Source: Haemophilus paraphrohaemolyticus
Lineage (GTDB): Bacteria > Pseudomonadota > Gammaproteobacteria > Enterobacterales > Pasteurellaceae
Direction: 5' to 3'
DNA length: 64,000 bases
Assembly: GCF_002015045.1 (NCBI RefSeq)
Contig: NZ_MUXX01000003.1
Span: forward strand, 1 to 64,000
Below are positions 30,643 to 34,351 of the stretch, piece by piece. Under the pieces are notes generated by a model that worked only from the letters and a program-made list of their open reading frames with translations, was not told where the DNA came from and ran no database searches. The position numbers and the translations under genes were made by a program. The stretch's first letter is position 1, and the number at the start of each line of letters is the position of its first letter.

Positions 30643-31113
30643 TTATTTTTCAGCAAACGCTCGGATTTGTTCAGCTCCGAAATGCCCTGGTACGGTTTTT
30701 TTCAGGTTTAAATCACTATCTAAAAAGAGATTGAACGGATAGCCTCGCACTCTTGCTTTATCAATGATTTCGCCTTTTTCATCTAAAAGCACTGTGATAT
30801 TTTTATATTCCAATCCTTTGTACCACTCAATAAAATCAGCAGTGCCTTTTTCGCCTTTGTGATCCGGCGAAACAATGGTAATCACTTCAAAATTGCGATC
30901 TTTTTCCGCACTTAAATCATCAATTTCAGCTAATCCAGCCAAGCAAATCGGACACCAAGATGCCCACATTTTTACATACACAGGTTTGCCTTTATATTGG
31001 CTTAAAGTAACTGGCTGATTGTTTAAATCTTTGAGTTGCACATCCGCCAAATTGGTTTGTGCAAAAGTATTTAGGCTGAATGCCATTAGAAATATTGATA
31101 GTAGTTTTTTCAT
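30643..31113 (-). CDS. Exported TlpA-family thioredoxin-like protein
   Basis: Protein of 156 residues. A signal peptide (ending LNTFA, residue 18) is followed by an AhpC/TSA-thioredoxin fold with active site WASWC54-P-I-C57 and a cis-Pro in RVRGYPFNLFLD. It is the last gene after msrAB and ccdA, so it most likely carries electrons from the membrane protein CcdA to the periplasmic methionine sulfoxide reductase. In Neisseria the same domain is fused at the N-terminus of PilB/MsrAB; here it is a separate protein. RBS AAGGA is present upstream. Confidence 0.9.
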   Translation of the reverse strand: MKKLLSIFLMAFSLNTFAQTNLADVQLKDLNNQPVTLSQYKGKPVYVKMWASWCPICLAGLAEIDDLSAEKDRNFEVITIVSPDHKGEKGTADFIEWYKGLEYKNITVLLDEKGEIIDKARVRGYPFNLFLDSDLNLKKTVPGHFGAEQIRAFAEK

Positions 31114-31154
31114 TGCTTTTTCCTTTTATAGATTTCTTTTGTTGAAGTTATGCC

Positions 31155-31796
31155 TTACGAAAAATTATTCGTAATCAATAAAATACCCATCACGATAATT
31201 AAAATTCCGCCACCGATTTTAAATTTGTCTAAGTGTTTATTTAACCCTTTAGCACGTTTGAGCAAGCTATCAGAGAAGAACGAAAACAGTACAAACGGCG
31301 TTGCCAAGCCTAAAACATAAACGAACATCATTGATGCACCGTAAAGTGCAGAGCCTTCATCGCCTGATAACGCTAACACAGAAGCCAGAATCGGGCCAAT
31401 ACAAGGTGTCCAACCAAGACTAAAGGTTAAACCAAGCACAAATGCCTCAAGTGCGGTCGATTTTCCTGATGTTTTGATTTCAACCAATTTTGTGCGTTCC
31501 AACAAACCAATTTTGAAAATGCCAAGTTGGTGAATGCCCAAAATAATCACGATAACGCCAGCAATAATGCGGGTGGTGTTACTAAATAAAATATTCCCTA
31601 AAAAGCCAAAACTAAAGCCTAAACTGACAAATGTAAGGGAAAGCCCTAAAATAAATAAAAAAGTATTTAGGACTTTTTTGCCACCTTTACTCAAAATACC
31701 AAAATAAATTGGGATAATCGGGAAAATACAAGGCGAAAGAAAAGAAGCAAGTCCGGCTAAAAATACAGTTCCAATAAGGAGTTGTTGATCTAACAT
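31155..31796 (-). CDS. CcdA-type membrane thiol-electron transporter
   Basis: Membrane protein of 213 residues with six hydrophobic spans. The two redox Cys are in ASFLSPCIFPIIP (first span) and LGWTPCIGPILA (fourth span), as in CcdA and the central DsbD domain. It moves reducing equivalents from cytoplasmic thioredoxin across the inner membrane. It sits 11 bp after msrAB and 41 bp before the tlpA-like gene, so its partner is probably the adjacent thioredoxin for methionine sulfoxide repair rather than cytochrome c maturation. Confidence 0.9.
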   Translation of the reverse strand: MLDQQLLIGTVFLAGLASFLSPCIFPIIPIYFGILSKGGKKVLNTFLFILGLSLTFVSLGFSFGFLGNILFSNTTRIIAGVIVIILGIHQLGIFKIGLLERTKLVEIKTSGKSTALEAFVLGLTFSLGWTPCIGPILASVLALSGDEGSALYGASMMFVYVLGLATPFVLFSFFSDSLLKRAKGLNKHLDKFKIGGGILIIVMGILLITNNFS

Positions 31797-31807
31797 CCTG
31801 CCTCTCC

Positions 31808-32866
31808 TTATTTTTTAATCGATTGAATCAAATATCCGTATCCTGCCTTTTCCATTTCAGCGAACGGAATAAATTTAATTGATGCACTGTTAATGCAATA
31901 ACGTAAACCGCCTTTATCTTTCGGACCGTCATCAAATACGTGACCCAAATGGGCATTGCCCGCACGGCTTAACACTTCGGTACGTTGCATATTAAAACTA
32001 TTATCCGTTTGATAATGTACAACCTCTTTCGCTATTGGTTTCGTAAAACTCGGCCAGCCACAACCCGATTCAAATTTATCATTTGAAGAAAAAACAGGCT
32101 CGCCTGTGGTGACATCAACATAAATACCTGGTTGGAAATTATCCCAATATTCATTACTAAAAGAGCGTTCAGTATGTTTATTCTGAGTGACGGAATATTG
32201 CAACGGTGTCAATTTCGCTTTGAGTTCTGCATCACTCGGTTTCGGATAATCTTTCTCGTCAATCACGGGTTCATCAGCTTTGGTAATATCAATATGGCAA
32301 TAACCATTTGGGTTTTTCTTCAAATAATCTTGATGATATTCTTCTGCTACGATGTAATTTTTAAGTGGTTGCACCTCAATTTGCACTGGTTTTTTATATT
32401 TGGTTTGAAGCTGGGCGAGTGCTTGTTCGATCACCGCTTTATCTGCCTCATCTTGATAATAAATTCCTGTGCGATATTGTCTGCCACGATCATTACCTTG
32501 TTTGTTTACACTCGTTGGATCAATTACTTTAAAATAATATTTAAGCAATTTATCTAACGAAATTTGGTTTGCATCGTAAGTGACTTTTACCGTTTCTGCA
32601 TGATCGGTTACCCCAATCATCTGATAACTAGTTTTCTCCGTATTACCATTAGCATAGCCAGAAATCGCATCTTTCACACCGTGAATGTGCTCCATATATG
32701 CTTCCATACCCCAGAAACAGCCACCAGCAAGATAAATTTCACGAATATTTTGCGTATTTTCCATTGCCATTTTTTGTTCTCCAGATGATGTTGAATTTTG
32801 TATTGCTAAAGTTGGTGTAGCACAACAAAGTGCGGTAATAAATAGAAATGTTTTTGATAGTTTCAT
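31808..32866 (-). CDS. msrAB: Periplasmic bifunctional methionine sulfoxide reductase MsrA-MsrB
   Basis: Protein of 352 residues. A signal peptide ends near TPTLA (residue 21). The MsrA domain (about 43-200) has catalytic Cys50 in [11 protein letters not shown], reducing the S-isomer of Met sulfoxide. The MsrB domain (about 215-345) has the motif [11 protein letters not shown], the [14 protein letters not shown] loop and catalytic Cys324 in [10 protein letters not shown], reducing the R-isomer. Together they repair oxidised periplasmic proteins. It is first in an operon with ccdA and a tlpA-like gene, and is preceded by an ECF-type promoter motif also found at the Met-rich gene. Confidence 0.96.
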
Positions 32867-32905
32867 TGTTTTTCCTTATGATGTGAAAATTAACGTTACA
32901 TAAGG

Positions 32906-32934
32906 TTAGACGGCGGACAATCTGATTTCTTACA
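32906..32934 (-). promoter_or_regulatory. Putative ECF sigma promoter of msrAB
   Basis: On the minus strand: TGTAAGAAAT (32934-32925), 12 nt, CGTCTAA (32912-32906), 40 bp before the msrAB ATG. The same two elements with the same 12-nt spacing occur at 33983-34011 before the Met-rich gene, and resemble the conserved -35 and -10 of an ECF promoter. Confidence 0.7.
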
Positions 32935-32995
32935 GGTTTTTTTACTTAAGTTTGAATTGTGGTAGGAATAAGGGAGGAATCTTAAATAGAAAAGA

Positions 32996-33022
32996 CTAAG
33001 TCTAAATTAAATATAGACTTAG
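32996..33022 (-). terminator. Stem-loop downstream of the gene remnant
   Basis: ctaagtcta / tagacttag, a 9-bp perfect stem with a 9-nt A/T loop. On the minus strand a tcttttctattt tail follows, so it would end transcripts coming from the sigma/anti-sigma side before msrAB. Confidence 0.65.
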
Positions 33023-33059
33023 CCTTGTTTAAATAAAATGATGTTGTTAGAGCAGAATT

Positions 33060-33197
33060 CTAATGACTTACTGCCATATTTAGTTTAGAAATAGCCTTCT
33101 TACCTTCTTCTTCAGAAACTTGTTCTAAATTTGCACCGCCTACAAATGCACCAAATTTAATATATTGACGAATAAAATAGTTTGCAAATTCAACCGC
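33060..33197 (-). pseudogene. Possible 3' remnant of an unidentified gene
   Basis: An open minus-strand frame of 45 codons after a TAA reads AVEFANYFIRQYIKFGAFVG, then GANLEQVSEEEGKKAISKLN, ending MAVSH and a TAG. It looks like protein-coding composition with an amphipathic end, but has no usable ATG near its beginning and starts inside an uptake-signal sequence. A terminator-like stem follows it. I do not recognise the family; it could be the tail of a deleted gene. Confidence 0.35.
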
Positions 33198-33218
33198 TTA
33201 TTTTTTGCTACCTATCAG

Positions 33219-33407
33219 TTAATTCTCTAGATGGTTTTCGGCATCCCTAAATTGCTTCATCATTTCGCTTAAGGTTTCGCAATTTCTTTGAAAACGGCGG
33301 CAATGTGGACAGGTAACTAAATGAACTTTTAACCCAACTTTTTCTTGTATATCTAATGAACGTTCGTGCGATTCGGAAATCATTCGAGTGGCTTGGCGAC
33401 AACGCAT
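33219..33407 (-). CDS. Small zinc-type anti-sigma factor (ZAS/zf-HC2)
   Basis: Protein of 62 residues with C3 and the anti-sigma zinc motif H29-x3-C33-x2-C36 (HLVTCPHC), plus Cys43. There is no membrane segment, so it should be a soluble, cytoplasmic redox-responsive anti-sigma factor: oxidation or metal loss would free the sigma factor. It starts 9 bp after the sigma gene, and its RBS (AGGAG) overlaps the end of that gene. In H. influenzae and Neisseria, similar sigma/anti-sigma pairs control MsrAB (from memory). Confidence 0.85.
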   Translation of the reverse strand: MRCRQATRMISESHERSLDIQEKVGLKVHLVTCPHCRRFQRNCETLSEMMKQFRDAENHLEN

Positions 33408-33416
33408 AATTTTCTC

Positions 33417-33962
33417 CTAAAGTTTTTTTGATAAACAATTTTGCAACTGCAAACGGGCCCGATAAAGTGTGGTATGCAAGTTGGAGGTAGTAAGCTGAGT
33501 TTCTTGACAAATTTCATCCGATGACAATTCTAAAAACTCTCTCATCATAAAAATTTTGGCATGTTTAGCGGGTAAACAAGTCAGGCAAGTTTCGAAAATC
33601 AACCAAAACTCATCAGAATACACCATTTCCTCTTCGCCCTGTAATTCGCTCGGATAATATTCTATTTTCCAATGCCCTGTATCATCAAAAAATGTATTAG
33701 TTGACTGTTCATCTTCAATTTCACTTTCTAATACAAAGCGTCCTTTCTGGCGAAGATAATCAATAATTTTATTTTTCAGAATAGCAAAAACCCAAGTTTT
33801 AAAAGCAGCTTGATGTTTAAAATTCGCGAGATTATTAAATGCACTTAAAAATGCTTCTTGTACTAAATCCTCAGCAAGGTCAGCATGGTGCAACTGTAAC
33901 GTTGCAAATTTCAGCATTTGCGTACGAATTTGTTGGAGTTCCGTATCAGAAATAGCATTCAT
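33417..33962 (-). CDS. ECF RNA polymerase sigma factor (RpoE2-like)
   Basis: Sigma-70 family protein of 181 residues with region 2 (DLVQEAFLSAFNNLANFKHQAAFKTWVFAILKNKIIDYLRQKGR) and region 4 (CLTCLPAKHAKIFMMREFLELSSDEICQETQLTTSNLHTTLYRARLQL, an HTH). Regions 1 and 3 are absent, as in ECF sigmas. It is followed directly by its zinc-type anti-sigma gene. The neighbours msrAB-ccdA-tlpA and the divergent Met-rich gene share a promoter motif and are the likely regulon. The long insert between regions 2 and 4 with EDEQSTNTFFDDTG is acidic. Confidence 0.92.
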   Translation of the reverse strand: MNAISDTELQQIRTQMLKFATLQLHHADLAEDLVQEAFLSAFNNLANFKHQAAFKTWVFAILKNKIIDYLRQKGRFVLESEIEDEQSTNTFFDDTGHWKIEYYPSELQGEEEMVYSDEFWLIFETCLTCLPAKHAKIFMMREFLELSSDEICQETQLTTSNLHTTLYRARLQLQNCLSKKL

Positions 33963-33982
33963 TTTAATTCCTTTAAAATTTT

Positions 33983-34011
33983 TGTAAGAAATGAAAAAGT
34001 GTTTCGTCTAA
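33983..34011 (+). promoter_or_regulatory. Putative ECF sigma promoter of the Met-rich protein gene
   Basis: TGTAAGAAAT (33983-33992), 12 nt, CGTCTAA (34005-34011), 61 bp before the ATG. Both elements and their spacing are identical to the motif before msrAB. Confidence 0.7.
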
Positions 34012-34016
34012 TAACA

Positions 34017-34037
34017 TGAAAGAAACAATTTCTTTCA
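34017..34037. promoter_or_regulatory. Perfect 9-bp inverted repeat in the Met-rich gene leader
   Basis: TGAAAGAAA-CAA-TTTCTTTCA lies between the putative ECF promoter and the start codon. It could be an operator for a dimeric regulator or a small mRNA hairpin. Confidence 0.5.
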
Positions 34038-34072
34038 ATACTATTTTTACCACTCAAACAAGGAAATTTAAA

Positions 34073-34351
34073 ATGAAAAATATTACATTGAAAAGCGCAA
34101 TCTTAGGTATGACTATGTTATTTGGTGCGACAACCGTTTATGCAGAAGAAATGAAATCTGACGCCATGCCAATGAAATCAGAACCCATGATGGCAGGGTC
34201 AATGAAGTCAGAACCAATGATGAAATCTGATGCAATGAAAATGGATCAGATGAAAATGCCATCAAATAAGATGATGATGAAATCAGAGAAAAAAATGAAG
34301 GCGGATAAAAAAATGAAAAAAGCGAAAATGATGAAGAAAGAGAAAATGTAG
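34073..34351 (+). CDS. Secreted Met/Lys-rich small protein (putative oxidant sink)
   Basis: Protein of 92 residues: signal peptide (1-24, ending TTVYA) and a 68-residue mature part with 20 Met and 19 Lys and no Cys or aromatic residue. It has degenerate repeats of the type MKSEPMM and MKSDAM, then a Lys/Met tail. The ATG at 34073 has AAGGA ahead of it; an ATG at 34016 would spoil the signal peptide. Divergent from the ECF sigma gene and preceded by the same promoter motif as msrAB. By analogy with MrpX of Azospira, it may absorb hypochlorite-type oxidants and be recycled by MsrAB; that role is inference. Confidence 0.85.
   Translation: MKNITLKSAILGMTMLFGATTVYAEEMKSDAMPMKSEPMMAGSMKSEPMMKSDAMKMDQMKMPSNKMMMKSEKKMKADKKMKKAKMMKKEKM

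Follow-up and report, generated by a model that had tools for sequence, protein, structure and literature searches.

Why does a gene for a small, methionine (Met)-rich protein stand divergent from the gene of an extracytoplasmic function (ECF) sigma factor, close to the genes of a methionine sulfoxide repair system? The question is raised by a 64-kb stretch of Haemophilus paraphrohaemolyticus DNA (contig NZ_MUXX01000003.1, positions 1 to 64,000; 'the window' hereafter), in which the sigma and anti-sigma factor genes rpoE2-hrsE, the repair genes msrAB-ccdA-tlpA and the divergent Met-rich gene are clustered. An earlier reading of the sequence alone (the 'sequence-only reading') had interpreted the cluster as one regulon in which the Met-rich protein serves as a renewable oxidant sink. 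Our analysis leads us to suggest, with a probability of roughly 0.7, that the Met-rich peptide is an RpoE2-driven periplasmic oxidant sink which is made together with MsrAB and renewed by it. Of the original interpretation, the shared regulation is well supported by comparative genomics and has an experimental anchor in H. influenzae, while the analogies that it named hold only in part.

Promoters and genes beside rpoE2

The pattern TGTAAGAAAT-N12-CGTCTAA is found at exactly two sites in the window, one ahead of msrAB and one ahead of the Met-rich gene, with identical elements and an exact 12-nt spacer, just as the sequence-only reading had described them. The motif is absent from 100 shuffled versions of the window, and allowing up to three mismatches adds no third site in the window (shuffled mean 0.28; two or more sites in 2 of 100 shuffles). 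Its -10 element and spacing fit the neisserial sigma-E consensus, GTMAGBWTT-N12/13-CGTCTAAH (PMC2893595), and its -35 element largely does; here and below, this article and PMC4623255, PMC7907618, PMC8315932, PMC9404787 and PMC13419390 are cited for parts of their content. The motif is anchored as RpoE2-type since the msrAB promoter of H. influenzae is switched on by RpoE2 and blocked by HrsE, and since a DoxX operon is RpoE2-dependent by experiment (PMC7907618); the DoxX operons of relatives bear the same promoter type as msrAB.

We compared the window with 140 genomes from a family search around Haemophilus seminalis, whose sigma factor is 99% identical to that of the window (H. quentini, 97%; these are the closest named relatives found). 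The core pattern TGTAAGAAA-N13-CGTCTAA has 61 exact sites in 40 of these genomes and 2 in the reversed control. A scan of related genomes had been proposed together with the warning that the motif might occur at random; the exact sites turn out to cluster 36-53 bp upstream of msrAB (34 sites) and 21-91 bp from rpoE2, directed away from it (21 sites), whereas in the two nearest genomes sites with up to three mismatches do not outnumber those of the reversed control (26 vs 26 in G001; 18 vs 23 in G002). One two-mismatch site is common to these two genomes. The remaining six exact sites lie in G016, G017, G019, G035, G106 and G111; that of G035 precedes a DoxX plus EGKCG-repeat pair, and that of G106 lies ~340 bp upstream of a MsrP-domain match. 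At the G016 and G019 sites (L144, L146) a small Met- and His-containing, predicted-secreted open reading frame (ORF) and a membrane-protein ORF are found nearby, alongside the centre of the locus and encoded on the minus strand. For the looser pattern TGTMAGNAW-N13-CGACTAA we count 43 sites, spread over 38 of the 140 genomes, and 10 in the reversed control. Three genomes (G075, G077, G081) carry two msrAB copies each, 97-99% and 76% identical to that of the window and all with the motif upstream; horizontal gain is likely.

RpoE2-type matches occur at 112 places in 104 genomes, with nine further genomes (of 113 matched) showing weak matches near 1e-11 only. We examined 111 loci, that is, 110 of these places and the window; G001 and G063 have two rpoE2 copies, 98-99% identical to the query (L001 6001-10556 and G063:C1:1752911-1757465), and are each represented by one. 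In L001, the two copies enclose three opposite-strand ORFs, and the DMT gene comes next. A Met-rich ORF (at least 45 aa, at least 8 Met, at least 12% Met) occupies the slot divergent from rpoE2 at 39 of the 111 loci (37 intact); at 8 more it stands in tandem with rpoE2, immediately upstream. The rest of these loci (1.38 Mb, 5,580 ORFs) has just one such ORF, which is a piece of a slot gene that has been split. Requiring at least 69 aa and at least 10 Met for an intact gene, we count 45 loci: 24 with the gene alone, 8 with msrAB and 5 with msrP following it, and 8 in tandem. A general motif, TGT[AC]A-N17-CG[AT]CTAA at a distance of up to 200 bp (relaxed at tandem loci to one additional base, a -10 element starting with C or T, and up to 1,000 bp), precedes the intact gene at 44 of these 45 loci, as opposed to 1 of 33 loci classed as 'none', 3 of 27 msrPQ-only and 4 of 6 msrAB-only loci. 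At the tandem loci the motif stands 84-92 bp ahead of the Met-rich gene and could also serve rpoE2. Across the 2.76 Mb of strands of these loci, the slot form of the motif occurs equally often inside and outside the slots (44 sites each), and many of the outside sites precede msrAB or doxX.

One slot has a different content: at L262 (G054:C11:135858-137141) an exact motif stands ahead of a DUF2282 bufferin-type gene and a DUF692 gene. The H. influenzae DoxX operon was at first taken for a bufferin operon, an assignment that we rejected; PF10048 (DUF2282) matched 1 of the 140 genomes, and PF05114 (DUF692) matched 37.

Gene and promoter also decay together. In the sigma clade of the window (35 rows, support 99/98) a perfect promoter is present at 21 of 22 loci with an intact Met-rich gene and at none of the 13 without one (Fisher p 9.5e-9, a value that ignores kinship). 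At four of these 13 (L076, L078, L080, L082) the only departure is a spacer shorter by one base, with both elements perfect; since the tandem loci manage with a spacer one base longer, counting these four promoters as broken is a judgement. In the tree, the rows that lack an intact gene sit in four places, namely L095, the four loci just named, L091/L093/L094, and L069-L073 with L068 among them. Only the first codons of the gene are left in L069-L073, behind a -10 element reading CCTTTAA or CTTTTAA; in L076, L080 and L082 the gene is split, with its 3' part ~3.7 kb from rpoE2 and doxX-hvfA between the parts. Taken together, the Met-rich gene is a real, conserved and probably functional member of the regulon. 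These sequence comparisons strongly support the view that it shares RpoE2-type regulation with msrAB, and we also infer from them that the peptide is RpoE2-dependent in the source organism.

The Met-rich protein and its putative reductase partners

The predicted mature protein contains 20 Met in 68 residues, as had been counted before, together with 19 Lys and neither His nor Cys (signal peptide ~1-24, with cleavage after residue 24 in our own reading). The ORF-finding program listed its start at 34016; all 10 retrieved relatives begin with MKN, which corresponds to 34073 here, where the start codon is preceded by AAGGAAA, a stretch resembling a ribosome-binding site. By the neisserial rule, transcription of the gene would begin near 34018-34019, six bases past the -10 motif. 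Even in the long form the ORF is the most Met-rich of the 227 window ORFs of at least 45 aa (Met fraction 0.216; the next has 0.087). The window protein has no family match in Pfam or NCBIfam, including TIGR02953 (pentapeptide MXKDX repeat protein; cut-off 41 bits), for which five of ten scanned proteins score below cut-off at 13.9-21.9 bits; UniRef labels two relatives (P0008, P0105) as 'Pentapeptide MXKDX repeat protein'. Matches of the repeat proteins to NCBIfam wall-binding, adhesin and LpxD models are far below cut-offs, look like low complexity, and were rejected. Slot proteins range from 69 to 191 aa, mostly according to repeat number, with Met making up 18-34% of the sequence after residue 24; two (L098, L099) are lipoprotein-like by our reading of their signal sequences. 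In alignments of 36 distinct slot proteins, Met is kept at 93% of aligned mature positions, Lys at 84% and all residues but Met at 72% (restricted to pairs sharing 60% identity or more across 30 or more mature positions; the pairs are not independent).

The best evidence that the peptide is a dedicated reductase substrate is that its gene precedes either of two unrelated reductases. At eight loci it is followed on the same strand by matches to msrAB, ccdA and tlpA (incomplete in L113), and at five loci by msrP and msrQ; both layouts are divergent from the same kind of sigma factor gene and, on the starred branches of the sigma tree, each requires at least two changes. The peptide gene and the reductase genes paired with it would each time form one transcript. 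It is this side-by-side pairing, and not mere presence, that bears the argument, because MsrAB (match at E <=1e-120) or MsrP is found in 118 of the 140 genomes in any case (68 MsrAB, 55 MsrP, 5 both). An intact peptide gene is present in 44 genomes, of which 36 show a MsrAB match and 5 have MsrP without such a match. For the window the partner is MsrAB; G001, the nearest genome searched, has no PF00174 match that would indicate MsrPQ. The pairing with two reductases and Met as the best-kept residue thus lend indirect backing to sink-and-repair chemistry.

The following mechanism may then be envisaged. HrsE would hold RpoE2 until oxidative stress, as in the model proposed for H. influenzae (PMC7907618), likely frees the sigma factor, which would in turn transcribe both msrAB-ccdA-tlpA and the Met-rich gene; such co-production is suggested because both genes adjoin rpoE2-hrsE and share the same RpoE2-type promoter. 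Exported to the periplasm together with MsrAB, the peptide would take up hypochlorous acid (HOCl) and chloramines on its methionines, and would then be reduced by MsrAB, with electrons arriving via CcdA and TlpA, and used again. MsrAB of H. influenzae reduces methionine sulfoxide in proteins, acting on oxidised calmodulin and repairing purified eP4 (PMC9404787), and it is for this reason that a Met-rich substrate of MsrAB is plausible. The tlpA product is the likely electron donor; the H. influenzae enzyme was assayed with an extracellular Trx (C645_RS08405; PMC9404787).

The gene positions reported previously are correct, and Pfam and NCBIfam assign the families (Table 1). The msrAB product scores 535 bits for NF010625 (cut-off 522), and HrsE, encoded directly downstream of rpoE2, shows the ZAS motif C3-X25-H29-X3-C33-X2-C36 when read from the sequence. 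The stretch between msrAB and hrsE (32937-33183) resembles a gene remnant and is 95-96% identical to one in L070-L072, where extra DNA parts it from hrsE. The DMT gene of H. quentini has no match in the rpoE2-hrsE-msrAB neighbourhood of the window.

Table 1. Genes and promoters of the rpoE2 cluster, with positions in the window.
Feature	Positions	Strand	Evidence
tlpA-like periplasmic thioredoxin (WCPIC)	30643..31113	-	Redoxin and AhpC-TSA Pfam matches above cut-off
ccdA/DsbD-type membrane electron conduit	31155..31796	-	PF02683 1e-20
msrAB, MsrA-MsrB fusion, predicted signal peptide	31808..32866	-	PF01625 3.1e-59, PF01641 9.3e-49
msrAB promoter, RpoE2-type, TGTAAGAAAT-N12-CGTCTAA	32906..32934	-	40 bp ahead of start codon; same place in relatives
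hrsE, 62-aa soluble ZAS anti-sigma factor	33219..33407	-	zf-HC2 26.4 bits vs 22.2; NF052368 67.7 bits vs 50
rpoE2, ECF sigma factor (TIGR02943 / NF009182)	33417..33962	-	TIGR02943 215 bits vs cut-off 162
Met-rich gene promoter, RpoE2-type	33983..34011	+	elements and spacing as in msrAB promoter
Met-rich predicted-secreted protein, 92 aa	34073..34351	+	divergent from rpoE2

Possible alternative roles of the peptide

Several observations weigh against a renewable sink: (i) an intact Met-rich gene is missing beside rpoE2 at 66 of the 111 loci (33 'none', 27 msrPQ-only, 6 msrAB-only), so that the gene is an optional member of the regulon; (ii) genomes that we call H. influenzae-like (L068-L073, after lipoprotein peptide matches in some of them and the gene order in PMC7907618) keep RpoE2 and MsrAB without the Met-rich gene, five of the six having only a stub, and the peptide is thus dispensable there; (iii) L068 keeps a 72-aa Met-rich gene behind a degraded promoter; (iv) G014 combines an intact peptide gene with an interrupted msrAB; (v) in G069 and G080 both gene and promoter are intact but neither a full-length MsrAB nor a MsrP match is present, the G069 version being 191 aa long with 52 Met; (vi) the genome-level association with a reductase is weak (41 of 44 genomes with the peptide, 118 of 140 overall); and (vii) 21 of the 30 retrieved DUF692 loci bear RpoE2-type motifs, core or looser, which places copper-peptide genes behind such promoters.

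The last of these points leads to the main rival, which is possible though in our estimate unlikely: a sponge for copper or other soft metals, in which the peptide binds Cu(I) in the periplasm, RpoE2 directs a combined oxidant and copper programme, and oxidation of Met is incidental. Met-rich motifs bind Cu(I). The motif lies ~80 bp ahead of doxX in the doxX-hvfA pair of four loci (L076, L078, L080, L082), HvfA being reported to become a copper-binding peptide (PMC13419390), and the G054 slot described above holds a bufferin-type gene. Some relatives have His- or Cys-containing versions of the peptide (15 His in L099), and one tandem version is weakly HvfA-like (19.6 bits, cut-off 95). The mature window protein, however, is Lys-rich and lacks both His and Cys, and the partners of the gene are methionine sulfoxide reductases at 13 loci. 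The same 13 direct pairings, with either of two unrelated enzymes, argue against a purely sacrificial sink, oxidised a single time before being discarded or degraded, with MsrAB co-induced for the sake of other envelope proteins. This we consider quite improbable, although G069 and G080 fit it, as do the 29 likely MsrAB substrates reported in H. influenzae (PMC9404787).

Finally, the promoter might serve autoregulation of rpoE2 or another transcript, with the Met-rich ORF being a low-complexity passenger. The motif is indeed only 21 bp from the rpoE2 start codon, and RpoE2 had a weak effect on an 865-bp rpoE2 upstream fragment of H. influenzae (PMC7907618). Yet the motif is directed towards the Met-rich gene, is altered where that gene has been lost though rpoE2 stays, and stands ahead of the gene also in the quite different layout of the eight tandem loci (with the ambiguity noted above), while Met positions are conserved; we regard this explanation as highly improbable. 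An RpoE2-driven sink renewed by MsrAB is the reading that we prefer.

Related systems and implications

The closest precedent is RpoE2-HrsE of H. influenzae (Nasreen 2021, PMC7907618), which shares with the window a closely related sigma factor, a soluble ZAS anti-sigma factor, a nearby msrAB operon and a link to HOCl. The term 'methionine-rich' is absent from the main text of that article, and H. influenzae-like genomes differ in having a stub behind an altered promoter in the slot and a DMT gene or other DNA between hrsE and msrAB. A Met-rich, predicted-periplasmic peptide encoded next to an ECF sigma factor gene is common to the window and the MrpX-MsrPQ type systems of Azospira and Brucella. 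In Azospira suillum, SigF-NrsF controls YedYZ-MrpX (Melnyk 2015, via PMC4623255 and PMC8315932), with NrsF as anti-sigma factor and YedYZ (MsrPQ) as reductase, whereas the window has a soluble ZAS anti-sigma factor (62-aa zf-HC2, not an NrsF-type membrane protein) and the thiol-dependent MsrAB-CcdA-TlpA; five relatives of the window resemble Azospira in pairing such a peptide with MsrPQ. BcrS-AbcS with BcrXQP of Brucella melitensis is an ECF system that responds to HOCl and combines MsrPQ with a Met-rich MXKDX peptide, but its sigma factor is of type ECF16, its anti-sigma factor has six predicted transmembrane helices, and its promoters are listed as TGTAACC...CGAA as compared with TGTAAG...CGTCTAA here (PMC8315932). 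The analogies drawn by the sequence-only reading are therefore right in kind, while Azospira and Brucella use another anti-sigma type and another reductase.

Sigma-E/MseR of Neisseria meningitidis (PMC2893595) is similar in its ZAS anti-sigma factor, its msrA/msrB target and its promoter; the parts of the article covered here mention no Met-rich peptide and report H2O2, diamide and singlet oxygen as non-inducing. Two of the perchlorate islands with the mrpX group also hold predicted-exported MsrA and MsrB homologues; these islands differ in being SigF/NrsF-controlled and in having MsrA/MsrB on top of YedYZ, with no RpoE2-type sigma factor named in the parts of PMC4623255 covered. RpoE2/HrsE/MsrAB, the neisserial sigma-E promoter type and the MrpX-like peptides are thus already published. 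The sequence-only reading had called the combination little described: this holds for the Met-rich member, as a non-exhaustive search of the open literature recognised no description of a Met-rich peptide in an RpoE2 regulon or of the reductase swap, but not for RpoE2-HrsE-MsrAB, which has been characterised.

The 'histone' WP_046067826.1 of strain Hi2019, whose accession follows that of RpoE2 (PMC7907618), was considered as an ortholog of the Met-rich protein and rejected: its peptides match a different protein, a Lys/Glu/Ala/Met-repeat lipoprotein encoded 2.7-2.8 kb from rpoE2, on the rpoE2 strand in L071 and L073 and in pieces in L070. Five peptides of the 'histone' had 93, 100, 61, 50 and 21% Met oxidation without MsrAB and 0 in the wild type (PMC9404787 Table 4). 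The lipoprotein is a parallel to the Met-rich protein and not its ortholog; its closeness to rpoE2 is not mentioned in the parts of PMC9404787 covered.

It is tempting to speculate, very tentatively and with more doubt than confidence, that RpoE2 runs a modular envelope sponge programme with interchangeable secreted peptides (Met-rich sink, the oxazolin precursor HvfA, bufferin) and interchangeable reductases (MsrAB or MsrPQ), in which the Met-rich peptide might serve specifically as a redox-cycling substrate and buffer oxidants, perhaps also copper, and that H. influenzae lost the peptide, with the Lys/Glu/Met-repeat lipoprotein near rpoE2 taking over part of its role.

Related bacteria pair the same type of sigma switch and peptide with two unrelated methionine sulfoxide reductases, which amounts to a natural swap experiment, and the renewable-sink idea put forward for MrpX and BcrX becomes directly testable with a thiol-dependent enzyme. 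The stubs in H. influenzae-like genomes suggest why work on the H. influenzae regulon would miss the peptide. Finally, the promoter rule links methionine repair, Met-rich peptides and copper-peptide operons.

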